DNA of 64,000 nt from Epilithonimonas caeni DSM 17710 (lineage in GTDB: Bacteria > Bacteroidota > Bacteroidia > Flavobacteriales > Weeksellaceae), in assembly GCF_000426465.1 (NCBI RefSeq), contig NZ_AUFK01000009.1, positions 372,001 to 436,000 of the forward strand, given 5' to 3'. Shown here piece after piece: positions 10,005 through 42,949 of this stretch; position 1 is the first letter of the stretch; each line of letters begins with the position of its first letter. The position numbers and the translations under genes were made by a program. Below the pieces are notes generated by a model. That model ran no database searches, was not told the DNA's origin, and was given only the letters and a program-made list of their open reading frames with translations.

Positions 10005-10067
10005 TTCATTACACATATAATATTTTAATAAAATTTTAGTTTTAATAGCTTAATGTTCGAAGACTCG

Positions 10068-12368: not shown

Positions 12369-12415
12369 GAAATTTGTGACTAAACAGATTTAAGTCTGTC
12401 ATAAGTCAATTTCCA

Positions 12416-17311: not shown

Positions 17312-17314
17312 AAT

Positions 17315-18703: not shown

Positions 18704-18726
18704 CCTTGCAATGAATTATTTTGAAT

Positions 18727-18766
18727 ATTAAAATAGTCTCAAATCTCATCTCTGAACTATTTTAAT
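18727..18766. repeat. 11-bp inverted repeat upstream of the kinase gene
   Basis: ATTAAAATAGT at 18727-18737 and ACTATTTTAAT at 18756-18766 are perfect complements with an 18-nt loop, 24 nt upstream of the kinase ATG on the minus strand. It could be an operator or a leader hairpin. Confidence 0.45.
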
Positions 18767-18788
18767 AATTGGATTAAAATTTTTAAAA

Positions 18789-18838
18789 ACCATTAAGGAG
18801 TGTTTAGGTCTAGGAAAACTAAACTCTGCCTTAATGGT
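18789..18838 (-). terminator. Hairpin after the isomerase gene, likely (partial) terminator
   Basis: On the minus strand the outer stem ACCATTAAGG / CCTTAATGGT and an inner stem around TTTAG / CTAAA enclose a small loop. A run of five T follows at 18788-18784. It lies between the isomerase stop and the kinase gene, so expression may drop here. Confidence 0.6.
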
Positions 18839-18912
18839 AGTAAAGAATAAATTAACTTATAATAAAAACCTTTAAATTCTTAAAAGTTGAAATTATCAAT
18901 TTTAATAGGATC

Positions 18913-20193: not shown

Positions 20194-20220
20194 AATATAT
20201 TTAAATTTTTCAAAAAGAAA

Positions 20221-20238
20221 GCCTGCCCGTAAACAGGC
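20221..20238 (-). terminator. Weak intra-operon hairpin before the isomerase gene
   Basis: On the minus strand GCCTG and CAGGC pair around an 8-nt loop and are followed by TTTCTTTTT. It lies between the aldolase stop (20266) and the isomerase start (20193) and may attenuate downstream expression. Confidence 0.45.
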
Positions 20239-20265
20239 CCTCCAATTAATAAATTACTTTTATTT

Positions 20266-22368: not shown

Positions 22369-22529
22369 TTTTATATTTCTAAATTTTTTATCAAAATTAG
22401 ATGGTTGGATTTTCAACGGCATCCCGTACTATACTGATGAATCCTAGATTTAAAGTTAATTTAAAGTAACATTCAACTTCAATCCGATGATTATTGAAGT
22501 CAAACCAACCCTATCTAATTTGTAAAAGA

Positions 22530-27600: not shown

Positions 27601-27661
27601 ACAGTAAAAATGCCGGAAAAACGATTCCCTTTATTGCTTTGTGTTTAATGATTAAAGACAT
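24620..27661 (-). CDS. SusC/RagA-family TonB-linked outer-membrane transporter
   Basis: This 1013-residue barrel imports oligosaccharides across the outer membrane using TonB energy. A signal peptide (about 1-27) is followed almost at once by a TonB-box-like DEVVVIGYGTVKKSDLTGSV (about 45-64). The plug domain follows to about 170 with NALQALQGRAAGLNI and YGARGSNGIIVIKTK, then a 22-strand barrel ending YVLGINLTF. The N-terminal carboxypeptidase-regulatory-like domain found in many SusC proteins is absent. It is first in an operon with susD and the intracellular rhamnose enzymes, and has a CAGGA-repeat operator upstream. Confidence 0.96.
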   Translation of the reverse strand: MSLIIKHKAIKGIVFPAFLLSSAFLAGQQETVSDTVQVSTKVIDEVVVIGYGTVKKSDLTGSVSSVSAKELAATPAMNALQALQGRAAGLNIVTASGAPGANANVTIRGGASITQGTEPLYIVDGFQLDNALNVINPNDIESIDVLKGASAIAIYGARGSNGIIVIKTKGGKKGKTIINYNNFTSFDTLSKKLDMISNAEDYVKYQYEMANLAGRTAQWSNYFDNNLPPETPGFYTGVFNRIDERYANASTLDWQKKMLGGSGLTTNHNFNFSVGTEKTQAFVSYNYNKQDGLLSNFSETRNSLRANITSELYKGIRVDFNSVFNTNSLNGGGAYSGMKKILLQPISGGTRFSLDQLFNTQTYGDFTALDPSYDTENPFIELQASTSNARTRNFVANTGLEIDFLKNFTFRTAGQYNWRSVKSTSFSDENSRANLTDPTTTGINGKIGNSESYGYQITNTVTYNNTFGKHKLNALIGQELVYSQSESNNMTLIKFPFPNFGLDDISTATVSDKSTDRSSTSLLSYFGRVTYNYDDRYLLTATVRRDGSSKFGDKNKWGFFPSVAAAWRTSQESFWQNSKINNVINDLKFRVEYGVTGNNDIGNNLFLTTYSITDYPMNNTPGTPVYVTSSNLGNPYLKWEELKSTNVGVDLALFNNRIKLTSEWYNNNVSDMLLQAVLPTSSGYSRQYQNIGNMRNRGVEFTLNTINWRSDNFRWSTDFNIGHNRSKVLSLERGRDSRTFSVGSNRAGVVTYYATVGEQLGEMYGYVYQGIYTTDDFIQNANGSLTLKDGVVKPATGTPKPGDIKFAADNEAGDQFTRKMVKIGDATPDFIGGMSNNFSYKGFDLAVFMKFSVGGDVYNATKHSLSPYALFQNVPSEFGTNFYHLIDPNTGQQTMNLARLKELNPNEDSRLWSLSNTNTQTITYPSSYYVEDGSYLRIAQLTLGYSLPKNFLRDIMVTNARIYVTVNNLATITGYSGFDPEVSAASGVAVTPGYDSSTYPRSRSYVLGINLTF

Positions 27662-27694: not shown

Positions 27695-27740
27695 CCAAAG
27701 TACATTGTTAAGAAAAGTTTGGCATCCTGCATTGTCCTGC
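27695..27740 (-). promoter_or_regulatory. Operator-promoter A of the susCD-rhamnose operon
   Basis: On the minus strand two GCAGGA half-sites lie at 27740-27735 and 27730-27725, 10 bp apart. After 22 nt comes TACTTTGG at 27702-27695, 7 of 8 to the -7 box TAnnTTTG. No clear TTTG -33 element is present, as expected for an activator-dependent promoter. The susC ATG is 33 nt further on. The same layout occurs at three other promoters of the locus. Confidence 0.75.
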
Positions 27741-28034
27741 ATTATTAATTTAATAATTTATCATAATTTTTAATGATTATTTCAACCACATATTCAAAAT
27801 ATTAAGAATTATGTTTAAATATTCAAAATAAAATTGTTAATATAAAATTGACTGAATTTTTGATTTTAGAAAAAAATTTCGGATTATTTTTCGGAAATCT
27901 ACATTAATTATAAAAAAAGAACACTGACAAAAATCAGTGCTCAATTTTCATTTAATTTGAAAGGAATTTGTATAAGAAATTTATACAATATATAAGAGAA
28001 AATTTATTCATAATTGATTATCAATATTTGTTTC
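27741..28034. other. Intergenic stretch between rhaT and susC
   Basis: AT-rich and non-coding. It holds the rhaT terminator hairpin at 27919-27942; the remaining bases show only AT-rich runs without a repeat or a reading frame I would support. The susC operator lies just past its left end. Confidence 0.4.
27919..27942 (-). terminator. Terminator after rhaT
   Basis: On the minus strand GAGCACTGA and TCAGTGTTC form a 9-bp stem (one G-T pair) with a 6-nt loop, followed by seven T. It lies 93 nt past the rhaT stop and separates rhaT from the susC operon. Confidence 0.75.
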
Positions 28035-29123
28035 TTATCTCAACGAGTTACCATAACCCACAATCAAAATCGAGATAAACATCACGATCATCCCGACAAT
28101 AATAGTTGAAATAGTTTTTCTGGAAACGCCTTTCCATTCCTTGATAATCACGCCCCAAAGATTGGCAATAAGAATGATGAATGCCATGTGTAAAATCCAT
28201 GAACTTGGACCATTGCCCATCTTGCTCTCTCCCATTCCGTAGAAGAAAAACTGTAAGAACCACATCGTTCCGGCCAGTGCACAGAAAATTATATTTTTTA
28301 CAACAGGTACATTTTTCTTGGTATAATCGGTGTAAGATTTATTTTTAAATGAAAGATAAAGACAGCCGATAAGATTGGAAGCCATCCCGCCCCAGAGGAC
28401 AACAACATACGTCACATTATTTTGAAAAAGGAATTCACCTTGTCCCGGATTGGCTAGTTTCCACGCCTCGTTTGCGACCATTGCCATTGGTTTCCCCGCT
28501 TCCAGCCCAAAATTGAAACACGCGCTTAAAACTCCCGAAATAATCGCAACTGTTAAACCTAAACCGAATTTGTATTCCGTTTTTGTCTGACCTCCGTGCG
28601 GGTCAAAAGATTCGGTCTGAAGTTCCCTGTCTTTCATCACTCCTGCTTTTCCACTGATGATGATTCCCACAACGCAGACCAAAAGTCCGAGCAAAACAAA
28701 CTGTCCCCAAGTGTTTGAAAACATTAATCCGATATTATCTTTTCCCGCTTCAGGATTGAATTCATAATAAATTGACGGCAAAAGTGAGCCAATCACCATC
28801 GTAAGTCCTAACATAATACTGCTTCCCAGTGCAACACCCAGATAACGAACGCCCAAACCATACATAAAACCGCCAATTCCCCAAAGTGCACCGAACAAAA
28901 AAGTCAGTCCCAAAATGGATGAAGATTCATTCTGAATGATTTTCCAGAAATTGGGAATGGTAAGAAATGCAGCCAGCGGCGGAACAATAATCCAGGAAAA
29001 AACACCTCCGATTAACCAGAATGTTTCCCATTGCCAACCTTTTACTTTTTTATACGGCAAATAGAAACTTCCCGATGAAAAGCCTCCTAAAAAATGAAAT
29101 ATTACGCCTAATAGTGCATTCAT
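28035..29123 (-). CDS. rhaT: L-rhamnose/proton symporter
   Basis: RhaT carries L-rhamnose with a proton across the inner membrane. The 362-residue protein has about ten hydrophobic helices and starts LGVIFHFLGGFSSGSFYLPYKKVKGWQWETFW, which I give only as the pattern of residues 5-36; the region around FYLPYKKVKGW is a RhaT hallmark. It has its own CAGGA-repeat promoter (site B) and a terminator, so it is regulated with the locus but not in the same transcript as susCD. Confidence 0.94.
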   Translation of the reverse strand: MNALLGVIFHFLGGFSSGSFYLPYKKVKGWQWETFWLIGGVFSWIIVPPLAAFLTIPNFWKIIQNESSSILGLTFLFGALWGIGGFMYGLGVRYLGVALGSSIMLGLTMVIGSLLPSIYYEFNPEAGKDNIGLMFSNTWGQFVLLGLLVCVVGIIISGKAGVMKDRELQTESFDPHGGQTKTEYKFGLGLTVAIISGVLSACFNFGLEAGKPMAMVANEAWKLANPGQGEFLFQNNVTYVVVLWGGMASNLIGCLYLSFKNKSYTDYTKKNVPVVKNIIFCALAGTMWFLQFFFYGMGESKMGNGPSSWILHMAFIILIANLWGVIIKEWKGVSRKTISTIIVGMIVMFISILIVGYGNSLR

Positions 29124-29145
29124 AATTATTGTAATTGTTGAATCT

Positions 29146-29191
29146 GAAAATTAACAAGACGAAATCGATTGCGCATCTTGCTCTGTCCTGC
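29146..29191 (-). promoter_or_regulatory. Operator-promoter B of rhaT
   Basis: On the minus strand GCAGGA (29191-29186) and GCAAGA (29181-29176) are spaced 10 bp apart. After 22 nt comes TAATTTTC (29153-29146), 7 of 8 to TAnnTTTG. The ATG of rhaT is 22 nt further on. The bases after the proximal half-site read TGCGCA, also shared in part with sites A and C. Confidence 0.75.
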
Positions 29192-29245
29192 AAAGAGAAA
29201 TTCAGTTGCGAAATGTATAAAAATAATCCGGAAATGTTGATGATT

Positions 29246-30979
29246 TTAGTAATGTGTATGATTGACCACGGTATTTTTCAGGTACATTTCATCTTTCTTT
29301 TTGTCTTTACCCGATTTTTCAGCAGATTTGCTGCCCCAAACTCGTAAATATCCTGAACCTAACGTAATGACTTCTTCCGCACCGTTACCCGTAAAATCGA
29401 ACATATGAAAAACCGGGTCAGGAAAATCAAGTTGTCCTTTTCCTTTTTCATTAATCAGAAATTTATACCAAAAAAGTTGCTCTGTTTTGCCATTCCAAAA
29501 TCCCTTAACAAAATCCGGATTGCCGTTGACAGGATTTCCCGGCCATTTAAAAAGAAAATCTCCGCTTTGATTAAACCAATACAGCTGACTCGAGAGATAA
29601 GGTTCTCCCAATTTTCTGTTGCCGTATGTGCGTGCGCCGGCAACAACCTGTAATCCGGGCATATTCTTAAGAAAATTTCCAACCTGAATCTGCTGTGTAT
29701 GTTCAGCAACATTCTGCCAGATGATGTTCCCCGTCATTCCATCATAAATAAAAACCCCGGTTTCACTGTTGGCGGTGACAAGGTCTGTTTTTCCGTCCCC
29801 GTTGATGTCAGCCAACTTATAACTGTCGGCGTGGTCGTGATTATCCGGCAGTAAATCAAACTTATTCCAGATTTCATTTCCTTTTGCGTCCAGTAAAAGT
29901 GAACCGATGAGAACTTCATCGATTCCGTCGTTATTTAAATCAACCGGATAGATGTAATGTCCCAAATTATCTTTTTTCCGCTTCTCGGTATGTTGCCAAA
30001 GTTTTTTTAGTTGGCTATCATAAGCCGTAATGTTTATTGTATTTCCCATATCGGTAAAAACGGCCAGTTCATTCGGACGGTTTTTGGTAAGTTTTCCAAC
30101 AGCAAGACGGAAATTATTGTACACGTGTGGAAGTGGCTGAGTCGGCCATTCGGTTTTATATTTTATTTTTCCTGTGGTTCCATCGACAATGACAAGAAAT
30201 TCTTTCCCGTCAATCATTCGCCAATGTGCAACTTCCGCCTTTCCGTCATTATCAAAATCCCAAATAACGCCCGGCGCCTCAAACTCGGAACGCTCTTTCG
30301 AATATTCTTCAGGCGCTTTCCATTGCCAGAGTTCTTTTCCGCTGTTATCATAAACACGAGCCGAAAAATCTCTTTCCAAAACCAGAAAATCTGTTTTTCC
30401 GTCGCCATTCACATCACCGAATTTCACAGCATTGCTTGTCGGAATTTTATATTCTTTGATGAGAACTACGTCTTCATTCAATTGTTTCGAACGAATATCT
30501 TCAATTTTGAGATTCGGATTTTTACTGAATGCGAAAACATTGAACATTGCTCCGCCACGAATTCTTGTGATTTTGATGTCGTTAATACCTTTTCTCAGCT
30601 TAAAAACACCTCCATTCTGCCAATTCATTTTATCACGTCCAAAAATTCCTGAAGTAATCTGGTCATTGACAATCACTTTGAATGAACTCTTTTCATTGCC
30701 GCTGCTGCGGACAAAAAGATGGTAATCGTCTGCTTGGGGAACAATAATTCTGGTCATCAGATTGGTTTCTGAATTGAGCAGAATCCCCGTATTGTTGAAC
30801 AGCCATTCCTGCTTTTGCTGATTGGCATCGGTGAGATAATTACCTTTCGGAATTTCATCTACAAAGTCGGACGCCGGAACAATAATATCCTTAACTCGGT
30901 CATTCTGGGCATTAAAAAATGATATCGAAAATATCAAAATTATTAAACTCATTTTTTTTGAGAATGAACATTGCTCCAT
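29246..30979 (-). CDS. Secreted FG-GAP/VCBS-repeat protein, possible glycan-active enzyme
   Basis: About 577 residues from this start. A signal peptide ends at SFFNAQ, without a lipobox or sorting domain. Residues about 30-165 form a beta-sandwich-like module with GVFKLRKGINDIKITR. The rest has five calcium-loop repeats of FG-GAP type: DVNGDGKTD, DFDNDGKAE, DLNNDGIDE, DINGDGKTD and DFTGNGAEE. This looks like the propeller part of PL11 lyases, but I cannot assign an enzyme family. The frame opens earlier at 31090; the ATG at 30979 fits the signal peptide. It is the last gene of the lyase operon, 128 nt past GH105. Confidence 0.75.
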   Translation of the reverse strand: MEQCSFSKKMSLIILIFSISFFNAQNDRVKDIIVPASDFVDEIPKGNYLTDANQQKQEWLFNNTGILLNSETNLMTRIIVPQADDYHLFVRSSGNEKSSFKVIVNDQITSGIFGRDKMNWQNGGVFKLRKGINDIKITRIRGGAMFNVFAFSKNPNLKIEDIRSKQLNEDVVLIKEYKIPTSNAVKFGDVNGDGKTDFLVLERDFSARVYDNSGKELWQWKAPEEYSKERSEFEAPGVIWDFDNDGKAEVAHWRMIDGKEFLVIVDGTTGKIKYKTEWPTQPLPHVYNNFRLAVGKLTKNRPNELAVFTDMGNTINITAYDSQLKKLWQHTEKRKKDNLGHYIYPVDLNNDGIDEVLIGSLLLDAKGNEIWNKFDLLPDNHDHADSYKLADINGDGKTDLVTANSETGVFIYDGMTGNIIWQNVAEHTQQIQVGNFLKNMPGLQVVAGARTYGNRKLGEPYLSSQLYWFNQSGDFLFKWPGNPVNGNPDFVKGFWNGKTEQLFWYKFLINEKGKGQLDFPDPVFHMFDFTGNGAEEVITLGSGYLRVWGSKSAEKSGKDKKKDEMYLKNTVVNHTHY

Positions 30980-31107
30980 TAAAAACTTTTTGTGGAAAAG
31001 CAACAGCCTCATTTTAAATTCAATAATAAACAATTTGAAAAGCATATCTCGAATATCTTCTGAAAATGTAATATTAGTTTTGATTTGCATACGCTGTTGC
31101 TTTTTTG

Positions 31108-32268
31108 TTATTTCAACTTATAAACCTCGCTTCCAGCCAACAACAAGCAGCCTAATCCGTAATCTTCAAAATCCGGCACCTTATCAACCGCTAAAGGTTG
31201 TCCGTCTTTCGGTTCCTTTCCTGTTCCCTGAACCCAGCCTAAAAATCCGTTCGGCTGCACAGAATCTTTTACAATGGCATTCCACGCTTTGACCAAAACC
31301 GGCAGATAAGTTTCTCTGTCGATTAAATTATTGTTGACGCCATATGCCATTCCATAAACGAAAAGTGCCGTTCCGGTCATTTCTTTTCCGCCAAAATTCG
31401 TGGGGTCGTGAAGACTTACATTCCAGAAACCATCTCCCCGCTGAATCGGCAACAAAGCCGCCAACAAATCTTTGTAATCTTGGAGATATTCCTGATAATG
31501 AGGGTCAGATTTCGGTGTATCGTGCAATGTTTTTGCCAAAGCAGCGACTACCCAACCGTTTCCACGGCTCCAGTAGCAATCTTCACCATTTGGTTCTTTG
31601 TAAGGCGGAATAAAACTTTTGTCTCTCCACCAGATTTTATCAGCCTGGTTGTACAGACCGTTTCCGCCTTCTTTGTACTTGGTGTGGGCATACATTTCAT
31701 AATTTCTGTCAAAATATTTTTGCTCACCTGTTATTCTTCCCAATTTGGTAAAAATCGGCATCGACATCTGAAGCGCATCAATCCACCACCAGTCATCCAC
31801 TTTATTGGTGGCAATCATACTGTCCATCGCAGCTTTCACGTTTTTGATTCTTTCCGGATTTTTTCTTTCGTCGATTTCATACAAATCGATATAGGTCTGT
31901 CCGCAAGCTTGGTGGTCGGCGTTTCGGGTGTAGGTTCCTCGCTGTAATTCCCAGTTGTGATTATTTGCCCAAGACATTGCATAATCATAATATTCTTTTT
32001 TTGGGTCAACAGAATATAACGCCATCAACCCTTCATAATACACCGCTCTTGTCCAAAGATTACTCGGCCAAACTTTTTTCCCGACAATCTCCTTTTTCGT
32101 ATCGGGCCATTTGTTCATAAAATATTGATTGGCTCGTCTTGAAACTTCCAAAACTTCTTTTTTATTTGGAATTTCAACTTTTGACGCCGTGTTGCTTTTC
32201 TGTACAGAGCAGGAAGTAAAACCTCCGATGATGAGTGCCAAAAAACCTGTTGTTAATAGTTTCTTCAT
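31108..32268 (-). CDS. GH105 unsaturated rhamnogalacturonyl hydrolase, lipoprotein
   Basis: GH105 enzymes remove the unsaturated galacturonyl residue from the non-reducing end of lyase products, here probably those of the PL11 next door. The 386-residue protein has a lipobox GGFTSC (Cys near 20), so it is membrane-anchored, most likely periplasmic or on the outer membrane. The alpha/alpha-barrel motifs include TRNADHQACGQTYIDLYE (about 115-132), WWWIDALQMSMP and YWSRGNGWV, as in YteR/YesR. It lies 44 nt after the PL11 gene. Confidence 0.93.
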   Translation of the reverse strand: MKKLLTTGFLALIIGGFTSCSVQKSNTASKVEIPNKKEVLEVSRRANQYFMNKWPDTKKEIVGKKVWPSNLWTRAVYYEGLMALYSVDPKKEYYDYAMSWANNHNWELQRGTYTRNADHQACGQTYIDLYEIDERKNPERIKNVKAAMDSMIATNKVDDWWWIDALQMSMPIFTKLGRITGEQKYFDRNYEMYAHTKYKEGGNGLYNQADKIWWRDKSFIPPYKEPNGEDCYWSRGNGWVVAALAKTLHDTPKSDPHYQEYLQDYKDLLAALLPIQRGDGFWNVSLHDPTNFGGKEMTGTALFVYGMAYGVNNNLIDRETYLPVLVKAWNAIVKDSVQPNGFLGWVQGTGKEPKDGQPLAVDKVPDFEDYGLGCLLLAGSEVYKLK

Positions 32269-32312
32269 TATATTGATTTTATTTTTTAAATTGAATTTCT
32301 AATTGCTTGGAA

Positions 32313-34190
32313 TTAATTTCTTTTTACAGAGATAACATTTGGCTTCGGCAGTTCTTTAATTGATTCATCCAAATAATAATTGGTGTGCGGCGGTTGATTG
32401 TAGCCTACATTTTGCCAGACAATACTTAGTCGATACTGCGGATTGTGCATCAAAGTATACAATCGATGTTGCGTCGGAATGGTTGTACTGAAAATTCTCA
32501 ATTCCTGATTATCGGCCGTTCTGTACATTACTTCTTCGCGCCAGTCCCCAAACAAATCGGCAACAAGAGCCGGATTTTTCTTTGTCCCGTTATTCGATTC
32601 GCATTGAAAATCTTTTGCATCGAAAATCAAATTGGATTTTTCTCTTTTCCAGTCCCATTTTGAAACAACAGTTCCGTCTAAAATCTCGCTTAAAAAATCA
32701 CCGTCCCAATAAATCCCCATATTCACTGCCGGATTTTTATCACTGATTTTTTTGCCTTTTGCGCTGTAAACACCTTTTAATCCTGCGCCGGATGCCCAAC
32801 ATTCTGAACCTTCATACCGAGGGTCAATGTTCAGCGACAAACCCCTTCCCGGTCCTTGAAATTTACTTGCCTGACTATAAACGGTTGACGGTAATTTCCA
32901 CAAAACTTTTCCTGTTTTCCCGTCTCTGAAATGCGCTCCCGCATCGTCAAACCGTTCCTGAATATCAAAAATTTCCAATCCGGGATTGGTTGGGTCTAAA
33001 TCGCCAACGTGTAAAGCATCGCCGTGACCGTAACCTGTACTGTTCAGAACTTTCCCATCATCGTCAACCGTCATTGCTCCGAAAATAATTTCATCTTTTC
33101 CATCATTATCAACATCTGCAATGCTCAGATTATGATTTCCCTGTCCGCGGTATTGTTTGTTTTCTTCGGAACTTTCGGTATCAAAAAGCCATCGAAGACT
33201 GAGTTTTTTATCTTTGAAATCCCAAGCAGCAATCGCTGTTCTAGTGTAATACCCTCTCGACATAATGACACTTGGCCTTTTTCCGTCCAAGTAAGCAACA
33301 GCTCCTAAAAATCGGTCGATACGGTTTCCTTTGGCATCGCCCCAGGTTTCGGTCATTTCTTCGTTGGTAGGATTTAAACCCCCTGCGAATCTTGGAACTT
33401 CATAATTTACTGTATTAATTTCCGCCCCGGTTTGTCCGTCAAAAACCGTTAGAAATTCCGGACCAGAAAGAATCATTCCGTTTTCATTGACGTAGTTTTT
33501 TGTTGGGTCACCAATATATTTTCCTTTTCCGTCTTTGCTTCCATCAGCAGTTTTCATTACGATTTCCGCTTTTCCGTCCTGGTCTAAATCATAAACTAAA
33601 AACTGTGTATAATGCGCTCCTTCCCTAATATTTTTGCCTAAATTGATTTCCCACAAAAACTGTCCGTTCAGTTTGTAGGCCTGAATAATCGGCGGGTCAG
33701 TTTCTCCTTTTTGGCTGTTATCGTGCGACCTTCCCGTTTGATGAAGGATGATTTCGTATTCTCCGTCTCCGTCCAAATCGGCAACTGAAGCATCATTTGG
33801 AGTGTAGCCTTCCGGTGTTTTTAAAGGAATTGAAAAATAAGATTTCTGATTGGCTATATATTTTGCAAAATCCTGGTCAACATCCTGATGTTGCGTATTT
33901 GATTTTATAAAATAGGTGTAATTTTTTCCTATGTCAGCGGTTTTATCTAAAAAATTAGTTTCATTGAACAACGGTTTCTCATTCAGTTTTTTGGTCTGAT
34001 TATTTTCTGTGCGGTATACATCGAAATGGGTATCCTGAGCTTCCGTTCCCAACAATCGCCAACTTACAAAAACACCTGATTCTGCAGGAATTGCAACGAT
34101 TCCACGCTTTAAATATTCCATTTGTCTTTGGGCAAAGAAGATTTGCGAAAGAAATAAAGCGGATGTAATGAAGATATATTTGATTTTCAT
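32313..34190 (-). CDS. PL11 rhamnogalacturonan lyase
   Basis: PL11 lyases cleave the rhamnose-galacturonate bond in the RG-I backbone by beta-elimination. The 625-residue protein has a signal peptide ending at IFFAQ, an N-terminal fibronectin-like segment (GVFVSWRLLGTE at about 39-50), and an eight-bladed propeller with calcium loops such as DLDGDGEYE, DLDQDGKAE and DVDNDGKDE. It shows no lipobox or T9SS domain. It stands before GH105 in the operon. The family call is firm; endo or exo action cannot be told. Confidence 0.95.
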   Translation of the reverse strand: MKIKYIFITSALFLSQIFFAQRQMEYLKRGIVAIPAESGVFVSWRLLGTEAQDTHFDVYRTENNQTKKLNEKPLFNETNFLDKTADIGKNYTYFIKSNTQHQDVDQDFAKYIANQKSYFSIPLKTPEGYTPNDASVADLDGDGEYEIILHQTGRSHDNSQKGETDPPIIQAYKLNGQFLWEINLGKNIREGAHYTQFLVYDLDQDGKAEIVMKTADGSKDGKGKYIGDPTKNYVNENGMILSGPEFLTVFDGQTGAEINTVNYEVPRFAGGLNPTNEEMTETWGDAKGNRIDRFLGAVAYLDGKRPSVIMSRGYYTRTAIAAWDFKDKKLSLRWLFDTESSEENKQYRGQGNHNLSIADVDNDGKDEIIFGAMTVDDDGKVLNSTGYGHGDALHVGDLDPTNPGLEIFDIQERFDDAGAHFRDGKTGKVLWKLPSTVYSQASKFQGPGRGLSLNIDPRYEGSECWASGAGLKGVYSAKGKKISDKNPAVNMGIYWDGDFLSEILDGTVVSKWDWKREKSNLIFDAKDFQCESNNGTKKNPALVADLFGDWREEVMYRTADNQELRIFSTTIPTQHRLYTLMHNPQYRLSIVWQNVGYNQPPHTNYYLDESIKELPKPNVISVKRN

Positions 34191-34254
34191 ATTTAAAATC
34201 TCTTGTTTTTAATAAGTTTGGCTGAATGCTTTTATAAACTAATATTTCCACAAT

Positions 34255-34327
34255 GTCATTCTGACGAAGAAGAATTTCATTGGTTTAGTTAAGATTCTTC
34301 ACTCCATTTCATTTCGTTCAGAATGAC
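34255..34327. repeat. Imperfect inverted repeat, GTCATTCTGA type
   Basis: GTCATTCTGACGAAG at the left and CGTTCAGAATGAC at the right end are complementary over about 13 bp, enclosing a second weak pairing of AAGAAT with ATTCTT. It resembles the hairpins at 14527 and 35358 in its GTCAT[TC]C ends. Confidence 0.6.
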
Positions 34328-34366
34328 AAATGCTCTAATAATGACATTTAAAACGTTTAATTTTTC

Positions 34367-34472
34367 GCAGCCCGACTTGAGCGGAAATCCTTTTTTGCAT
34401 ATTCCTCAAGTTCTATTTAGACCGAAATCTTCTTGCAAAAAAGATTGGGAGCGGAAGGCGGAAAAGCTGCCC
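34367..34472. repeat. Dispersed intergenic element, AGCGG/CTTTTTTG family, copy 2
   Basis: It starts GCAGCCCGACTTGAGCGGA and ends with AAAGCTGCCC; inner arms CTTTTTTGCA and TGCAAAAAAG are complementary. Block order and length (106 nt) match copy 1 at 14643-14750. It lies between two genes transcribed to the left. Confidence 0.7.
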
Positions 34473-34516
34473 AAATAATCCCCAACAATTAAATTCAATC
34501 GATTGCACACACTCAA

Positions 34517-35320
34517 TTATTTTTTGGAAACCTGCTTGAGTAACCATTTTACCCATTCTTCGGTTCCTTCATAATTGGAAAAATCCTCGGTAAGCTTCTT
34601 TCCATCGATGTACTCATTGTAGCACCAAGGGTCACCTAACGCAAACACAGTTCCCTTTCCAACTTTTGCGATAGCACCAATCGCCTGATTCTGAGCATAC
34701 AAAAATGGCTTTGCAGGTGCTTTTACCGAAATGGTACTGACTTCTTTCATATATAATTTAAGTTCCGAAAACACTTCATTTCCCGGTTTTACGTAGACTG
34801 CACCTTTCTCAAACTCCCTGCCTTTCAATCTGTTGATGCTGTCATCGTTAAAATGAATGCCGAACTTTTCCGCCAGTTTATTGAAATACTCAAACTCGGA
34901 ATTGCCATTGTCGTTGCTCATCAAAACCAAAACACCGCCTTTTTTCACCCATTCTGTAAGGTTTTTGATGGAATTAGCGTCAATCAAATTGGCTTTTCCT
35001 CCGTACGCTTCTTTGTCGATATCGGGATCAACGATGATATAAATATTAGCGTTTTTCAAGTCTTTTTTGGATGGAGCGGTCGTCAAAGTGCTGATTTCTG
35101 CACCTTGCTTTTGGAAGATTTCGCCTAGCAAAGAAAATCCGCCGTTGGAAGTGTCGTTCCACGTGTAATGCCACGATTCCAAAACTTTGGTTTCTTTATT
35201 TTCCTTTTTTTCGTTGTTGAAAAAGTTGTCCAAAACGACTTTCGGTTTGTTTTGAGCATTGGAAAATCCAAATGTGAGGAGCGTTCCTAATGCCAATGTT
35301 TTTACGATATTTTTATTCAT
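34517..35320 (-). CDS. Secreted DUF4350-like protein of the pectin locus
   Basis: This 267-residue protein has a signal peptide ending at GFSNAQ. The mature part looks like a flavodoxin or class I glutamine-amidotransferase-like fold of the DUF4350 kind: NANIYIIVDPDIDKE, WVKKGGVLVLMSND and GKGTVFALGDPW. Such proteins occur in polysaccharide loci, but I know of no established activity. It is flanked on both sides by dispersed hairpin repeats, between GH106 and PL11. Function is unknown; a binding or accessory role is possible. Confidence 0.75.
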   Translation of the reverse strand: MNKNIVKTLALGTLLTFGFSNAQNKPKVVLDNFFNNEKKENKETKVLESWHYTWNDTSNGGFSLLGEIFQKQGAEISTLTTAPSKKDLKNANIYIIVDPDIDKEAYGGKANLIDANSIKNLTEWVKKGGVLVLMSNDNGNSEFEYFNKLAEKFGIHFNDDSINRLKGREFEKGAVYVKPGNEVFSELKLYMKEVSTISVKAPAKPFLYAQNQAIGAIAKVGKGTVFALGDPWCYNEYIDGKKLTEDFSNYEGTEEWVKWLLKQVSKK

Positions 35321-35357
35321 AAATATTTATTTCTATTTTCAAAAGGCTTCGACAATC

Positions 35358-35431
35358 CTTCGACAAGCTCAGGATGACAACGCTAAAATATAACGTTTAT
35401 TAGTAGAGATGTCACACTGAGCTTGTCGAAG
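35358..35431. repeat. 21-bp inverted repeat, TGAGCTTGTCGAAG type
   Basis: Arms 35358-35378 and 35411-35431 are complementary at 19 of 21 positions around a 32-nt spacer. The same sequence type (ATCCTGAACTTGTCGAAG) is found inside the composite repeat at 51246-51264. It lies between GH106 and the DUF4350-like gene. Confidence 0.75.
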
Positions 35432-35462
35432 TGTCTCTATAATATTAATTCCTAATTCTAAA

Positions 35463-38234
35463 TTATTTTGAGAAATATACAGGAATTAATTGAATTTCGC
35501 CATCCAAACCTGAAGGTTGTACTTTCCAATTTGATGCATCGAATGGTTTGTAATCAATGTTTACAAAATTGATTTCGTGGTAATTTCGCCACTGGATTTT
35601 ATTCTGGTCCATATAACGGATTCGGTTGGCCATCAGGTTTGAAACCTCAATCTGAATGGTATTTTTTCCCTTTTTCAAATATTTTCCGACGTTGATTTCA
35701 AACGGTAAACTCCAGACAATTCCCGCATCTTGTCCGTTGATGATCACTTTTGCACTTTCATATAATTTGTTGAATTTCAGTACAAAATCGTCGGCTTTTT
35801 TATTTAATTTAAATGAAGTCGTGTAAACTCCGGTTCCTGAAAAACTCTGTGTTGAAGCGTCTTCAGTAAAATTTGTCCAAGGCTGAATTCTGTCTAAAAC
35901 TCTCGATTTCGGAAGTTCGGGACCGCCTTCTTTGAAAGTCAGTTGCCAAGGTTGATTTAAAATAATTGGGGCTTCCATTTTTTCAATATATTTCCATTTT
36001 GAAATTGAATTATCCGTAGTTTCTGAAGCTTTTATAATTAATGATTTTCCTGATTTCAGTTGAACTTTTACCGAATTATTCTGTGCTTCAGCAACACCAA
36101 AATCTCCGTTTTCAGGATTCATTAAGGCAATCTGTTTTCCGATAAAATTCAAAGGAATTTTCTGATTGATTTCTTTTGAAGTATGATTGACAATGTAATA
36201 ATATTTTCCACCGTCAAACTTTCTTCTGACAAATTTCAATCCTGTATCCGTTAATTTTTCTCTTTCAATTTTTAAATATTCTAAAGCTTTTTCAACATCA
36301 GAACTCAACACAATTCTTCCTTTTCCGAATGTTGCTGATTGTAAATTTCCATCCTGCTGAAAAGGAATTTTAGCCCATAAAGATTGTAATTCTTTTCTTC
36401 TTTTTTCAAATTCAAAAAATCCCGGAACGTTTTTTGGCTCGCTTTGGAAAATCACTGAAGCGCCATTTTGAGCTAAGTTTAAAATATTTCTTAAAGTGGA
36501 TTCAGAAGAATAAATCAACTGAGGAATAATTAAAACCTTGTAAGAACCACCATTTTTCGAAACCTGAATATTTTGATTTTCAAACTTTGCTTCACCAACC
36601 ATTTTATCTGAAATCATATCCAGAGAATAACCGGATTTTCCTAATTTTTCAAGGTTTTCGTAAAATACGGTCGGATGCAACCACTTTTCAATATTATGAA
36701 TTTTGAACGCCATATCTTTCCCTTTCGGACTCGCCCATTGGTCGTAAACCGGCCAATACATCAGGATTTCGTTGTCTGATTTTCCACTTTGCAAAACGGA
36801 TTGTGTTCTTTCGATGTAAGAATTTAAACCTTTAATATTCGGCCACAACGAATTTTCTGGAACAAAATTCGTCGAAGCATAAAACAACCAGCCCGGAAAC
36901 TGAACATCAGCGGGCGTATACGTCGTTCCGTGATAAAAAATATGGTTGATTCCGGATAAAAAAATCTGTTCTGCTTCAGGTTTTACCTGTGACCAAGACG
37001 TTTTAAAATGTTCCGTCAACCAAGTAAAGGATTCATTGGAAATCAAAGATTTTCCGGTAATATTGGCTGCCGAAGAAGCGAATTTCAACATATTGATGTC
37101 GGGAATTTCTTTCGTATTAATGTCTTCCAGATTCCTTCTCAAACCCTGAATATCAAATTTTGTGCTTCCGAAAGTTTCAGATTCAGGAATATCCACTGCA
37201 GCGTATAAATCCAGCAAATTCCCCGGAGAACCGTGTGCCTGATTCGTATTTTTTGAGTTTTTGGAATGTGCCCAATTCGTAAAGTTTTCTGTGAAATTAT
37301 GAAGAATCAGTTCGCTCATCGTTTCACGATAATCTGATTTTATTCTTCCGGCGATTTCACTTTCATCATCGCTCACCAAATATTTGATATACTGACTTAA
37401 ATCGTAACCTCTTCTTTTTTTGAATTCTTCTTTAAAATTTACCGTCCAATCTGCACCATAAACCTCATAACTGTCATTGAAAAACGAACGGACTCCATAG
37501 TTTGAATTTCCGAAAGCTTTATCGAAAGTTTTCAGATAATCCTTTGTTGCATCGGGAGAAAAATGGTCTAAAGTGTAGCCATCGCCACCCGGAGCGGCAC
37601 GCTTTACTTTCTGTAAAGTTTTGCCAACAAAAACTGCGTAGATTGTCCATTTTCCAGAGATTGGTTTCCAGTTTAAAGTTCCGTCTAGAGCTACTTTATC
37701 TGTTAAGACAAACGCTTCATTCTTCTCATTGTAAGCGGTTACAATATCGAGTTTTGTGGCTTTTATATTCTTCTGTTTCTCGTCTTTTAAAACAATCTTT
37801 TCAGAAAATTTTTCATTCGGTTGAATGTCATAAGTCTGAACAATCATTTTTGTTGCTGCATCATTTTCATCAACTTGCAGTCCGCCAATTGGCCAGCCTG
37901 TTCCAACCGACATATCAACGCCCATATTCAGACTTTTAGCCTTGTCAGTCGTGAATTGTAACATTTTCATCCATTCCGGAGAAAGATAATTTATGTATTT
38001 GTTTTCAAAACCTTTAGCACCATAAATCGGGACAATCTCTACTCCACCAAAACCTGCTTTGGAAAGGGTTGTCAGTTGTTTATCCAAACCTTTTTCATCG
38101 ACCGCACTTCCCATCCACCACCAACGAGTCCACGGTTGAGCGGTATTGTTTGCTTTTGGCCACGGATTCTGTGCGGAAAGATTTCCGAAGGTGAAACATA
38201 GAACGCTGAGTTTGAGTATACTTTTAATTTTCAT
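35463..38234 (-). CDS. GH106 family glycosidase, probable alpha-L-rhamnosidase
   Basis: GH106 enzymes release terminal alpha-L-rhamnose, often from RG-I oligosaccharides. About 923 residues from this start. A signal peptide ends at GNLSAQ, then NPWPKANNTAQPWTRWWWMG and GFGGVEIVPIYG, both family hallmarks at the N-terminus. The C-terminal part has a beta-sandwich with a galactose-binding-like region (FKLNKKADDFVLKFNKL onward). The frame opens at 38315, but the ATG at 38234 starts the signal peptide. It lies 183 nt after the GH2 gene and supplies rhamnose for RhaT. Confidence 0.93.
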   Translation of the reverse strand: MKIKSILKLSVLCFTFGNLSAQNPWPKANNTAQPWTRWWWMGSAVDEKGLDKQLTTLSKAGFGGVEIVPIYGAKGFENKYINYLSPEWMKMLQFTTDKAKSLNMGVDMSVGTGWPIGGLQVDENDAATKMIVQTYDIQPNEKFSEKIVLKDEKQKNIKATKLDIVTAYNEKNEAFVLTDKVALDGTLNWKPISGKWTIYAVFVGKTLQKVKRAAPGGDGYTLDHFSPDATKDYLKTFDKAFGNSNYGVRSFFNDSYEVYGADWTVNFKEEFKKRRGYDLSQYIKYLVSDDESEIAGRIKSDYRETMSELILHNFTENFTNWAHSKNSKNTNQAHGSPGNLLDLYAAVDIPESETFGSTKFDIQGLRRNLEDINTKEIPDINMLKFASSAANITGKSLISNESFTWLTEHFKTSWSQVKPEAEQIFLSGINHIFYHGTTYTPADVQFPGWLFYASTNFVPENSLWPNIKGLNSYIERTQSVLQSGKSDNEILMYWPVYDQWASPKGKDMAFKIHNIEKWLHPTVFYENLEKLGKSGYSLDMISDKMVGEAKFENQNIQVSKNGGSYKVLIIPQLIYSSESTLRNILNLAQNGASVIFQSEPKNVPGFFEFEKRRKELQSLWAKIPFQQDGNLQSATFGKGRIVLSSDVEKALEYLKIEREKLTDTGLKFVRRKFDGGKYYYIVNHTSKEINQKIPLNFIGKQIALMNPENGDFGVAEAQNNSVKVQLKSGKSLIIKASETTDNSISKWKYIEKMEAPIILNQPWQLTFKEGGPELPKSRVLDRIQPWTNFTEDASTQSFSGTGVYTTSFKLNKKADDFVLKFNKLYESAKVIINGQDAGIVWSLPFEINVGKYLKKGKNTIQIEVSNLMANRIRYMDQNKIQWRNYHEINFVNIDYKPFDASNWKVQPSGLDGEIQLIPVYFSK

Positions 38235-38417
38235 TAAATTTATAATTAAGAACAAAACTTTTTTCAGACTTAAATTATTTAAAGTTTTGTAATTCTGCTT
38301 TTCAGAAGAATACATTAGTTTTAAAAATCAAAGATTTATTTTTCAACATTAAGAAATGAAGATTTATGGTTTTATTATTTAAATTCTTATATCAAATCAA
38401 TTTATTTAGCCTGATAA

Positions 38418-41273
38418 TTAATCCGTCAAAATATTTTCTTTTGGCATTGTAAACTGTTTATTTTCATCGCCTAAATCCGGCAATCCGAAATAGAAATATA
38501 AGGTTCTTTTAAACGTTCCGTTCAGATGATTCGGTTCGCTTTCCGGTCCTAACGATTCGGTTTTATCGTTAATGTTAAACGCCAAAACAGTTCCCAACGG
38601 CGGAATCGCATCTAAAAATGAAATATTTCCGCTTGGCAATTTCGGATAACCTTCCGCTCCATAAATTCCGTAAAAATCGAAAAGTCTGACGAACATTTTT
38701 TCTTCTTTTGTTCCAATCGTAATTTTTCCTTCGGCTGTATCCAGTTGCAACCACGAAACATCATCAAAATAACCTTTAAATTCAGGGTAAATCCACGGCG
38801 ATTGTCCGGTTCTTGTTGAGTTTTTTAAATTCTGCCAAACATTGTAAGTCTGTCCCTGAGTTCGGTTTTTCCAAATGTGATAAGGGCCTTTTCCAAGCCA
38901 TTTTGCGTTGATGACATAATTTTCTGGATAATCGAAACTTACGCCTGCAAACTGATAATCTCCCGCTAAAGAATACTCATAATTTAATTCTAAAATCCCA
39001 TTCGGATTGAGCTTCCAAATGATTTTATTTCCGTTTTTGTAATTGACTTCAATCAGTTGGTTTTGTCCTTCTGCAAAAGATTTTATAGATGATAATTCCA
39101 TTGTTCCGTTCACGAAAACAGGGCCATTTTTGAAGGTCATTTTCTTGCCTTTTTTATCGACAATCACAGATTTTAATAAGCCATCTTTTTTTCCAATGGC
39201 AAATTCTTTTTCGTCTGATTTTAGAATAAATTCAGCATCATTTTCAGTCACAGAAACCTGAAATTCTTTGATTAAAGATTTTGAAAACTGCTTTGAAATT
39301 TCATCATTCGACTTCAATTTCCAGGTCCAGGTATAAATTTCTTTTCCGAAAGAATCAGTTGCCGCTAATAACAAGCCTTCATTTTCTTTCCAGTTTGGAG
39401 GAAGATTTAAACTTATATTTCCTTTTTCTGTCGGTTGAATATTTGGAGATTCTGCTTTTCCTGTTTTAATAATATCAAAACCTGATTCAGAAGAAAATGG
39501 TGTTTTAAATTTAATTAATTTCCATTCAAATTGACAGTCTTTTAAATTCGTAAAATGATAGCGGTTTTCAACAGGAATATTTCCGTTAAAATCGTTTGGT
39601 AACGATTTCAAATCAATTTTTACCGGGCTGTAAATTTCACGGATAGCATAGAAACTACCTTCCTTTTCACGATGTGGCCCCAACACTCCGTCGGGAGCAT
39701 TAATCGCATTGACATCAATCTGATTATTAAAATCCGTTCGTACCAAACCTTCATCCACAAAAGCCCACAAAAAACCTCCCGCTCCTTTCTTGGAATTCCA
39801 ATGCAATTCCCAATAATCGGCGAGAGAAGTTCCGCCACCGCCGTCGTCCTGTGCGTGTAAAAACTCGGTCGGCATATAAATATTTTCGCCTTCGAGGATA
39901 TTTTTTGTGCTGTAATAATCTTCATAATGATTGCAGTCGATGCCGTTGAAAGCGTTTCCTGGTTTGTGATGCGCGTGAATGACAGGTCGGTTTGACAAGT
40001 CGTATTTTGCAAACTCGGCATCCAAATCAAAATTATGTCCGCCTTCATTTCCGTTGCTCCAGAAAATAATTGACGGATGATTGGCATCTCTTGTAACCAT
40101 TTCTTTTACAAGCTTTTTCCCGACTTCTGTGCTGTACTTTCTTTGCCAACCCGCCAATTCATCCAAAACATATAAACCAAGCGAATCGCAAATTTTCAGA
40201 AACGATTTATTCGGTGGATAATGAGAACAACGAACGGCATTCATATTCATTTCTTTGATGAGCTTAACGTCCATTAAATCGATATTTTCCGTGACCGCTC
40301 TACCCGTTTCCGGCCACCAAACGTGACGATTGATGCCTTTCATTTTTACCTTTGTTCCATTGATGAAAATTCCGTCACCTTTGCGGATTTCAATCGTTCG
40401 GAAACCAAACTTTTCTTCAGTTTGACTGATTGTTTTTTTGTTTTTATTTAAAGTGAATTTAGCTTTGTATAAATTCGGTGTTTCCGCTGTCCATAGTTTT
40501 GGGTTTTTAACGGAAAACTGAATCTGTTTTAAAATATCTCCTTTTTGAATTTGAACCTGAGATTCACCAACCAAATTATTTTTAATATCAAAAATTTCAA
40601 CTTTCAAATTATTTGTGGAATTAATTCCTTTCAACCTAATATTCGAACGGAAAGTTCCGTCTGCTTTAGCATCAATTGCCGTTGATGAAATATGTTCTTT
40701 CGAAGTTGCTTCCAAATAAACCGGTCGGAAAATTCCACCTAAAATCCAATAATCAGCTAAGCGTTCTGCATTGTTGACAGATTTATCAGCTGACATTTTG
40801 GAGACTTTTACCTCCAGAATATTTTCTTTTCCAAATTGAATTTTATCCGAAACATCATATTTAAACTCATAAAAAGCACCCTGATGAATTGCTCCTGCCG
40901 ATTTTCCGTTGATTTTCACTTCGGTATCGGTCATTGAACCTTCAAAAACGATGTTGATGGTTTTTCCTTTCCAGGAATTGGGAACGGTGAATTTGTGTTT
41001 GTACAAACCTGTTTCGTCATGAAACTTGAAGTTTTTACCATACGTTACATAATCCCGACCGTAATTGTACGAACCAAAACCTTGCTGTTCCCAATGAGAA
41101 GGCACATTGATTTTGCTCCAGCTTCCTGATTTTCTACCTGAATTTATCCAAAAATCCCATTCTTTGGTATGTTCAGCATCTTTCCCACTTAAGAATTGAA
41201 TTTCTTTAGACTGAGAAAACAAAAACTGTGAACAGACACATAACAGAGCTAATATTTTGGAAAAAAAACTCAT
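38418..41273 (-). CDS. GH2 family glycosidase, probable beta-galactosidase
   Basis: This 951-residue exo-enzyme has a signal peptide ending near FLFSQ and the GH2 order: sugar-binding domain with NVPSHWEQQGFGSYNYG (about 56-72), immunoglobulin-like domain, TIM barrel, and C-terminal galactosidase domains. The acid/base is E410 in SNGNEGGHN and the nucleophile E470 in YMPTEF. KGINRHVWWPETGRAV fits the barrel start. It probably trims galactose side chains from RG-I. Its ATG overlaps the GH28 stop by 1 nt (TAATG), so translation is likely coupled. Confidence 0.93.
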   Translation of the reverse strand: MSFFSKILALLCVCSQFLFSQSKEIQFLSGKDAEHTKEWDFWINSGRKSGSWSKINVPSHWEQQGFGSYNYGRDYVTYGKNFKFHDETGLYKHKFTVPNSWKGKTINIVFEGSMTDTEVKINGKSAGAIHQGAFYEFKYDVSDKIQFGKENILEVKVSKMSADKSVNNAERLADYWILGGIFRPVYLEATSKEHISSTAIDAKADGTFRSNIRLKGINSTNNLKVEIFDIKNNLVGESQVQIQKGDILKQIQFSVKNPKLWTAETPNLYKAKFTLNKNKKTISQTEEKFGFRTIEIRKGDGIFINGTKVKMKGINRHVWWPETGRAVTENIDLMDVKLIKEMNMNAVRCSHYPPNKSFLKICDSLGLYVLDELAGWQRKYSTEVGKKLVKEMVTRDANHPSIIFWSNGNEGGHNFDLDAEFAKYDLSNRPVIHAHHKPGNAFNGIDCNHYEDYYSTKNILEGENIYMPTEFLHAQDDGGGGTSLADYWELHWNSKKGAGGFLWAFVDEGLVRTDFNNQIDVNAINAPDGVLGPHREKEGSFYAIREIYSPVKIDLKSLPNDFNGNIPVENRYHFTNLKDCQFEWKLIKFKTPFSSESGFDIIKTGKAESPNIQPTEKGNISLNLPPNWKENEGLLLAATDSFGKEIYTWTWKLKSNDEISKQFSKSLIKEFQVSVTENDAEFILKSDEKEFAIGKKDGLLKSVIVDKKGKKMTFKNGPVFVNGTMELSSIKSFAEGQNQLIEVNYKNGNKIIWKLNPNGILELNYEYSLAGDYQFAGVSFDYPENYVINAKWLGKGPYHIWKNRTQGQTYNVWQNLKNSTRTGQSPWIYPEFKGYFDDVSWLQLDTAEGKITIGTKEEKMFVRLFDFYGIYGAEGYPKLPSGNISFLDAIPPLGTVLAFNINDKTESLGPESEPNHLNGTFKRTLYFYFGLPDLGDENKQFTMPKENILTD

Positions 41274-42649
41274 TATTTTGCAGCAATTTTTGAATCGTCT
41301 TTTTTATCGTAAGATAGTGTAAGAGAAGCCACTTTCGTTACGTTAACTTTATTTTGCTTTAAATTCTGAATGGTTTTTAAATTCTGTTCTTCAGGCTTTA
41401 TGGCTTTAATTTTAAGATTTTCAAAAGTGAAATCTTTTAAATCAAATAAATCTGATTTTTCAATAGAAAAAGTGGTCTCGCAGGTGATATCAATATTTTT
41501 TAAAGTAATGTTATTGGCTAATCCTTTTCCAGGTCTTTCCTCACCTTTCAAATCAAAAAACTGATTCCAGCCTTTTACATACAAAAAGGTTTTTACATTT
41601 CCTTTGATGTTTTCGACCGTCACATATTCGTAGTGTTGAGGCGTGTCTGGACGCATTTTCAGGTGCAGCAATCTTGATGGGTCTTTCACCACAGAGTTGC
41701 GTAAAAGCACGTTGTAATTGTGGATAGATTCGCTTCCGCAAGTCAAAACCGAATGACAGAAACCAAAGGTACTGTCTTCAATCAAAATATTTCTGTTTTC
41801 TCCGTTATTTGGGTCTGTGTCGGCTTTCGGACCTTTTCCTCCTTTCAGAGCGATGGCATCGTCATTGACTGACATATAGCAATTTTTAATCAGGAAATTC
41901 GTGCAGGCATCGATGTCAACTGCATCCGTACTTGGGGCTTTTACCGGAGCTTTTGGAGCAAGAATCGTGAGATTTAATAATTTAACGAAATGAGATTTGT
42001 AATAATGCGTGCTCCAGAACGGTGAATTTTTTACCGTAATTCCTTCAATCTGAATATTTTTTGAATTGGAAACATAGATGATCCTCGGCCTCATTTCATC
42101 CATATTTGTGCATTTAGGATTCCATTCGCGTCTTTTCCAGAATGATTTCCAGAATCTTAGTCCGTTTCCGTCAAGGGTTCCCTTTCCTGAAATGGTAAAA
42201 CCGTCTAATCCATCTGCATTGATCAAAGCCGGAAAATATTTTACGGTCTGCCCTTCCATTCTTGTTGTCACCACAGGAAAATCGTTGATATCATCGCTTC
42301 CTTTTAATTTTGCACCATTTTCTAAATATAAATGAGTTCCTTGTTTAAAGAAAACCGAACTAATAAGAAAAGTTCCTTTCGGGACGATGATAACACCGCC
42401 GCCGTTTTTCGCAGCAACATCAATAATTTCCTGAAGCTTTTTGGTCTGAAGAACCGTACTGTCGTTCTTCATTCCGTTTTCTGTAATGATGTATTTTTTG
42501 CCTAATGTATTGACATCGGTTGGCTTGTTTTCTTTGAACCACTTCGGAATGGCTGTTCCGTCTGGAAATTTGTCCTGACTTTTTAAAGATGAAAAAGAAA
42601 AGAGAAGAGAAAAAGTTAAGAAAAGCTTTGATATATTGTGAAATTTCAT
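41273..42649 (-). CDS. GH28 family glycosidase (polygalacturonase or rhamnogalacturonan hydrolase)
   Basis: About 458 residues from this start; the signal peptide ends at SSLKSQ. The right-handed beta-helix shows STDAVDID and NDDAIALKGG, carrying the catalytic aspartates. The usual GHG appears as CHS in FGFCHSVLTCGSES and the usual RIK as LHLKMRPD, so this is a divergent GH28 subgroup. Given the locus, hydrolysis of galacturonic acid from RG-I or from homogalacturonan stubs is likely. The frame opens at 42721 inside the operator; the ATG at 42649 is the true start. It is first in the operon. Confidence 0.9.
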   Translation of the reverse strand: MKFHNISKLFLTFSLLFSFSSLKSQDKFPDGTAIPKWFKENKPTDVNTLGKKYIITENGMKNDSTVLQTKKLQEIIDVAAKNGGGVIIVPKGTFLISSVFFKQGTHLYLENGAKLKGSDDINDFPVVTTRMEGQTVKYFPALINADGLDGFTISGKGTLDGNGLRFWKSFWKRREWNPKCTNMDEMRPRIIYVSNSKNIQIEGITVKNSPFWSTHYYKSHFVKLLNLTILAPKAPVKAPSTDAVDIDACTNFLIKNCYMSVNDDAIALKGGKGPKADTDPNNGENRNILIEDSTFGFCHSVLTCGSESIHNYNVLLRNSVVKDPSRLLHLKMRPDTPQHYEYVTVENIKGNVKTFLYVKGWNQFFDLKGEERPGKGLANNITLKNIDITCETTFSIEKSDLFDLKDFTFENLKIKAIKPEEQNLKTIQNLKQNKVNVTKVASLTLSYDKKDDSKIAAK

Positions 42650-42679
42650 AATCGATTTTATATAGCTAATAAACGAAAA

Positions 42680-42725
42680 TAAAAATATAGTTTTTGTGTA
42701 ATTAGCGCATCCTGTCCTCACCTGT
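42680..42725 (-). promoter_or_regulatory. Operator-promoter C of the GH28 operon
   Basis: On the minus strand ACAGGT (42725-42720) and ACAGGA (42715-42710) are 10 bp apart. After 22 nt comes TATTTTTA (42687-42680), 7 of 8 to TAnnTTTG. The GH28 ATG is 30 nt further on. TGCGC follows the proximal half-site as in site B. Confidence 0.75.
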
Positions 42726-42903
42726 CAATAAAATATCAATGAAGTTATAAAACATATTTTTCATCGATTGAATGTTAAATTTTGATTCTAAAACATTTTA
42801 TTTGATACAAATCCAATCATCTTCAAACCTTGATTAAATCTTAATTCAAGTTAATATTTAATTAATACAAAATTCACAATAAATCATAACAACCTGATAA
42901 TTA

Positions 42904-42949
42904 ACAGGATTCGACAGGACAGTCATCTTGATGGTTGTTTCTAATTTTC
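42904..42949 (+). promoter_or_regulatory. Operator-promoter D of the pectate lyase gene
   Basis: Two ACAGGA half-sites lie at 42904-42909 and 42914-42919. After 22 nt comes TAATTTTC (42942-42949), the same -7 sequence as at rhaT. The ATG is 37 nt further on. Sites C and D drive divergent transcription from one 337-nt gap, whose middle (42726-42903) is AT-rich without other structure. Confidence 0.75.

Follow-up and report, generated by a model that had tools for sequence, protein, structure and literature searches.

In a stretch of 64,000 nucleotides (nt) of the Epilithonimonas caeni DSM 17710 genome (contig NZ_AUFK01000009.1, positions 372,001 to 436,000, hereafter the window), the promoters of a locus for the use of rhamnogalacturonan I (RG-I) and rhamnose carry a short tandem repeat at a constant distance from the -7 promoter element. 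We propose, with a probability that we put at roughly 85%, that this repeat is the operator of a rhamnose-responsive GntR/LacI-type regulator, which would bind the two repeat units at about -50 to -31 and act as a class II activator. RhaR is the label given to this protein in the present analysis. The distribution of the predicted sites supports one operator and one regulon comprising surface lyases, the SusC-like receptor, the transporter gene rhaT, and rhamnose catabolism via rhaEW.

Results

A preliminary description of the window had listed four sites, and their coordinates, strands, and 10-bp spacing proved to be as given there. These predicted RhaR operators lie before the susC-like gene (GCAGGACAATGCAGGA, 27725..27740, minus strand), rhaT (GCAGGACAGAGCAAGA, 29176..29191, minus strand), the GH28 operon (ACAGGTGAGGACAGGA, 42710..42725, minus strand), and the divergent gene of a PL1-like lyase (ACAGGATTCGACAGGA, 42904..42919, plus strand). 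RCARGW-N4-RCARGW has no other match in the 64 kb, where first-order Markov resamples yielded a mean of 0.29 matches and never as many as four (0 of 150). Exactly 22 nt 3′ of each operator is a -7 box, namely, TACTTTGG at 27702-27695 (susC), TAATTTTC at 29153-29146 (rhaT), TATTTTTA at 42687-42680 (GH28), and again TAATTTTC at 42942-42949 (PL1). The 22-nt distance had been noted correctly, but the earlier score of 7 of 8 positions counted two Ns, and the real match to TAnnTTTG is 5 of the 6 specified bases. When the downstream sequences were shuffled 5,000 times, a box of at least 5/6 at all four promoters was never obtained at any offset from 10 to 44. The lack of a -33 TTTG was also borne out, as the promoters of the locus combine a good -7 box with the absence of a -33 TTG.

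A fifth, degenerate operator is predicted at the rhaEW-rhaI-rhaB-lldD operon (TCAGTATAGTACGGGA, 22422..22437, minus strand), followed by a -7 box that matches at 6/6 positions (TAATTTTG, 22399-22392). Its degeneracy and its overlap with the first ATG of the open reading frame (ORF) explain why this site had been overlooked. As the ATG of the longest rhaEW ORF, at 22422, begins at the end of the operator, the true start is probably at 22368. Similarly, the GH28 ORF opens with a GTG at 42721, inside the operator, and its true start is thus probably the ATG near 42650.

Pattern searches were run over the 4.1-Mb genome. The bare 16-mer gave approximately 1,000 matches at up to two mismatches and was uninformative. 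When the 22-nt spacer and TANNTT were added, matches with no or one mismatch were found only at susC, PL1, rhaT, GH28, and a sixth site, G000:C10:48062, with 11 further matches at two mismatches; the rhaEW promoter (C1:394394-394437, i.e., window 22437-22394) was among those with three. The sixth site lies approximately 47 nt 5′ of a second PL1-like gene (PL1b), directly after which comes the gene of the candidate regulator described below. The five best matches are therefore all regulon promoters, and the motif is not equally frequent elsewhere, an outcome that had been set beforehand as a check. The proposal that surface lyases, transporters, and rhamnose catabolism belong to one regulon stands, and the regulon is wider than claimed. 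A weight matrix built from the relatives only, with the window sequence left out, ranked the same five window sites at the top (rhaT, 25.4 bits; susC, 25.4; GH28, 22.5; rhaEW, 21.5; PL1, 21.3), and the next-best match scored 15.4 bits and had no -7 box.

The relatives were chosen through RhaT, which is present in 20 of 149 genomes of the family, including this one; approximately 40 kb around RhaT was taken from each of the 19 others. Across these 19 relatives and the window, sites were found before susC (20), rhaT (18), and GH28 (18), as well as before PL1, PL1b, and rhaEW. In the relatives the operator takes the form RCATGACAsTACAAGA at rhaT and GCAGTATAGTACGGGA at rhaEW. The 22-nt distance to the -7 box is held in all six promoter classes, and the TAnnTTTG score averaged over classes shows a sharp peak at offset 22 (4.9 of 6; the next-best offset reaches 3.2). 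The box of PL1b, TAACTTGT, also at offset 22, is an exception to TAnnTTTG and fits the TAnnTTGY class of -7 boxes described in Flavobacterium psychrophilum, where the -7 box spans -12 to -5 (PMC9723704). With the box at these positions, the 20-bp operator is predicted at about -50 to -31. Its center would thus fall near -41, and every target keeps the same interval between operator and core promoter, as in class II activation.

The operator consists of two tandem 10-bp units of the consensus ACAGGATAGT, repeated twice, with the core RCAGGA-N4-RCAGGA. Column similarity was 0.61 for a direct repeat with a period of 10, versus 0.43 for the best inverted arrangement, and the palindromic form of AraR-type operators is not seen.

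The candidate regulator is a 348-residue protein that combines a GntR domain with a C-terminal domain of the LacI type; its gene adjoins lldD in at least 11 of the 19 relatives. The N-terminal winged helix matches PF00392 over residues 17-80 (45.2 bits, with a cutoff of 27), and its relatives of solved structure, by sequence, are GntR domains including that of AraR. The C-terminal LacI/GalR-type domain matches PF13377 with an E value of 2e-5, slightly under the curated cutoff. An AlphaFold model made from 12 sequences (predicted local distance difference test score, 84; predicted template modeling score, 0.67) has LacI, SghR, and CcpA as its best Foldseek matches (E about 1e-11 to 1e-10), which is what its sensor part would lead one to expect. 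Orthologs with at least 88% identity are confined to, and present in all of, the 20 of 149 family genomes that have RhaT, and the other family matches are paralogs of 35 to 39% identity. The exact pattern of site plus box was found in 19 of the 20 genomes that carry the regulator and in 1 of the 129 that do not. The E. caeni ortholog is at G000:C10:49634-50677 and, like PL1b, lies on another contig than the rha cluster. Codon 335 of its 348 is TAG (G000:C10:50636-50638; L094/L120), whereas in the relatives this codon encodes Gln.

More distant orthologs, of 40 to 63% identity, come from relatives at the level of the Flavobacteriaceae and of the class, and are located in rhaT/rhaEW/rhaI/rhaB clusters, mostly in divergent orientation. 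An operator was present before rhaT or rhaEW at 15 of the 15 loci examined, in one case just past the called start. Of 166 other genes of these loci, 8 had an equal score of 10 and 4 a score of 11. A strict pattern, MAGGAYAGTACAGGAYNG, occurred 13 times in 11 of the 296 genomes of the order, all of them among the 35 that carry an ortholog. On the assumption, which does not hold, that genomes are independent, this overlap would have a chance of the order of 1e-11. The same pattern written backwards had no occurrence in the 296 genomes. The strict Flavobacterium motif has no match in the E. caeni genome, as the letters between the cores differ.

Further sites lie away from the main cluster. Two extra strict-motif sites precede susC-like genes in Flavobacteriaceae-level relatives (L316, L318), and in Chryseobacterium rhamnose-type operators were found before a PL1-like gene (L310, L311) and a susC-like gene (L312-L314). 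These predicted sites point to a wider regulon.

Paralogs of the regulator show related arrangements. Those of 33 to 39% identity that accompany galactose genes have ACTGGTAGGT-ACTGGTATGT-type tandem units (ACTGGTAGGT twice) in 19 of 24 distinct loci, and, where neighboring genes were read, an aldose 1-epimerase gene and a GH53-like gene lie alongside. In 18 of these 19 loci the units are 22 to 23 nt before a -7 box, and in one they are at 20 nt. XylR-like paralogs, found by xylose isomerase and xylulokinase genes, have an exact tandem AACAGAACGG repeat directly after a TACTTTAG box; the two copies stand upstream of the gntR gene of the xylose operon (L292-L294), between the TACTTTAG box and the start codon. 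This position resembles that of a repressor site, but as it comes from three closely related genomes it is only suggestive. No clear repeat was seen at the loci of paralogs of 51 to 52% identity (L220-L222).

Judging by these sites, direct repeats of tandem 10-bp units seem to be what the entire branch recognizes; their positions would suit an activator in two of its members and a repressor in one. A stronger version, on which we put even odds, is that the GntR/LacI branch of the Bacteroidota recognizes tandem 10-bp repeats of about ACnGGnAnGT twice and activates from a fixed class II position, with changes of a few letters separating the regulons for rhamnose and RG-I, galactose, and other sugars. 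If true, operators could be read as a code at many sugar loci of the Bacteroidota, and the layout shared with the galactose paralogs would allow the operators of other regulators of the branch to be predicted from sequence.

Discussion

We suggest that RhaR binds the two units, which are about one helical turn apart, head to tail and through two DNA-binding domains on the same side of the helix. The protein would be switched by a ligand derived from rhamnose (rhamnose itself, rhamnulose, or a phosphate), and as a class II activator RhaR would substitute for the -33 contact that is missing at the promoters of the locus. Activation is the preferred reading because the operator position is constant and the promoters lack a -33 TTG.

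Several observations weigh against this model. Palindromes are the sites of most GntR proteins characterized so far, AraR included, and repression is the role of most AraR-type proteins. The -33 region lies within the operator as well, and a repressor bound there could act by occlusion. The repeat of the XylR-like paralogs seemingly lies 3′ of the -7 box, and position is then not uniform across the family. An autoregulatory site was not found at the gntR promoter when upstream sequences were inspected by eye. Finally, the E. caeni copy of the regulator is without its last 14 residues, including two short strands of the model, and its activity in this genome is uncertain given that loss. The operators are still well conserved here, which suggests that the codon-335 stop, if real, is recent or harmless.

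Among the alternatives, the one nearest to our proposal keeps RhaR and the operator unchanged and makes the protein a repressor that blocks the -33 region until released by rhamnose or its product. AraR of the Firmicutes, a known protein with such an architecture, is a repressor; the operator overlaps positions -35 to -31; and the XylR-like paralogs have their tandem repeat just after the -7 box. However, a spacing that stays at 22 nt across all six classes of promoters, and at 22 to 23 nt for the galactose paralogs, is better explained by a contact with RNA polymerase, and promoters without a -33 TTG would be weak if unaided. We therefore regard repression as possible but rather unlikely. Because its distance to the -7 box is the same at each promoter, the repeat might also be no operator but an element of promoters that an alternative sigma factor recognizes. 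The boxes, though, conform to the sigma-A consensus TAnnTTTG or to the close TAnnTTGY class. Each genome has the motif at only a few promoters, most of which belong to sugar genes, and its distribution follows that of a DNA-binding regulator for sugars whose paralogs alter the letters and retain the layout. Such a promoter class is thus very improbable.

The remaining alternatives change the protein. The preliminary description had proposed an AraC-family or hybrid two-component regulator, a proposal that relied on the activator geometry. An activator-type geometry beside the promoter was indeed found, activation itself being a deduction from it, but the AraC-like part did not hold, as it is a GntR/LacI protein that tracks the cluster and the motif. 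The two helix-turn-helix motifs of one AraC monomer touch DNA about one turn apart, a spacing that would suit the 10-bp period. This genome encodes approximately 55 AraC-type domains, and an AraC-type RhaR and hybrid two-component systems (HTCS) control the rhamnose and rhamnogalacturonan genes of Bacteroides, but the published motifs have a periodicity of approximately 21 bp, not the 10 bp seen here (PMC3870299, PMC3878776). None of the 55 or so domains lies in the window, and no AraC gene is linked to the locus there; the conserved linked regulator is the GntR protein, and the distant loci connect it to a motif in the neighboring promoter. RhaR is very probably not AraC-like, and we give little credence to a reader of the AraC or HTCS type. 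The 10-bp period would fit a rhamnose regulator of the DeoR family, as DeoR-type RhaR motifs in several other phyla are direct repeats of 10 to 11 bp (PMC3870299). The single HTH_DeoR match of the genome was rejected as a candidate, being a helix-turn-helix/WYL-like protein that is beside no rha gene, and the absence of a DeoR-type candidate makes this possibility almost negligible.

Within the GntR family, a close known counterpart of the proposed RhaR is the AraR subfamily, represented by AraR of Bacillus subtilis, in which a GntR winged helix is likewise fused to a LacI/GalR-type sugar sensor and which governs how a sugar of plant cell walls and the polymers of that sugar are taken up and degraded (PMC4494728). 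AraR is an arabinose-responsive repressor of Firmicutes that binds palindromes, whereas the system described here belongs to Bacteroidota and has a tandem 10-bp direct repeat at a fixed, activator-like position. Direct repeats are known for GntR proteins of the NanR, NagQ, FarR, and MocR types (PMC4494728). Escherichia coli NanR, with the operator (GGTATA)3 (PMC8012715), and MocR-type proteins thus resemble RhaR in placing GntR winged helices on direct repeats but have other C-terminal domains and ligands, and NanR is a repressor of sialic acid genes. In the same phylum, the Bacteroides RhaR (BT3768) controls rhamnose catabolism as an activator (PMC3878776, PMC3870299), but it is an AraC-family protein, unrelated to the one proposed here, and its single target operon includes neither surface lyases nor SusC. 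HTCS_Rgu-1 and HTCS_Rgu-2 of Bacteroides control rhamnogalacturonan loci via direct repeats (PMC3878776); unlike the proposed RhaR, they are membrane-bound hybrid two-component proteins that sense oligosaccharides, have sites of approximately 21-bp periodicity, and leave out the enzymes of monosaccharide catabolism.

Our analysis provides a probable regulator and a precisely defined operator for the use of pectin (RG-I) and rhamnose in Chryseobacterium/Epilithonimonas and many Flavobacteriaceae. In these bacteria the lyases of the cell surface and the enzymes of catabolism would answer to a single cytoplasmic sensor, in contrast to Bacteroides, where the lyases are under oligosaccharide-sensing hybrid systems and catabolism is under an AraC protein. 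Searches of the openly accessible literature, which does not extend to subscription papers and RegPrecise, brought up no account of a rhamnose regulator of the GntR type in Bacteroidota.

Gene content of the locus

Genes of the window were assigned from Pfam domains. On the minus strand, the catabolic operon (16160..22422) encodes RhaEW (an aldolase/dehydrogenase fusion), a RhaI-like isomerase, a RhaB-like FGGY kinase, and an LldD-like FMN dehydrogenase. The susC-like gene for a TonB-dependent receptor (24620..27661, minus strand) has susD (22530-24599) as its partner, and rhaT (28035..29123, minus strand) encodes an L-rhamnose-proton symporter (PF06379). The rhamnogalacturonan depolymerization genes (29246..42650, minus strand) code for GH28, GH2, GH106, DUF4350-like, PL11, GH105, and second PL11-like proteins. 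The divergent gene (42987..45977, plus strand) encodes the secreted PL1-like lyase, with fn3, laminin-G-like, and type IX secretion system (T9SS) sorting domains; no pectate lyase Pfam domain was found above threshold in it, and its name is that of the preliminary description. That description had seen no cognate regulator in the window, and we agree, as a LytTR regulator (50480-51175) is the sole DNA-binding regulator seen there. Known LytTR sites are repeats approximately 21 bp apart, and this protein, whose gene adjoins a ferritin gene, was rejected as the reader of the operators.

Three other features of the region were recorded. At 8892-13558, the window has a gene of 771 codons between two genes for lactonase-type beta-propellers (PF10282). 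In relatives (e.g., L053/L054), a gene for a 440-residue SGNH-like esterase is conserved between GH106 and GH2, but the window lacks it. At 29158-29175, where the operator of rhaT is followed by the -7 box, a LacI-type palindrome around GCAATCGATT separates the two; TGCGCAATCGATTGCGCA is matched within three mismatches at only two places in the genome, this one and G000:C2:529343-529360 (L320). As the palindrome core is found in the rhaT promoters of most relatives, rhaT may have a second regulator.

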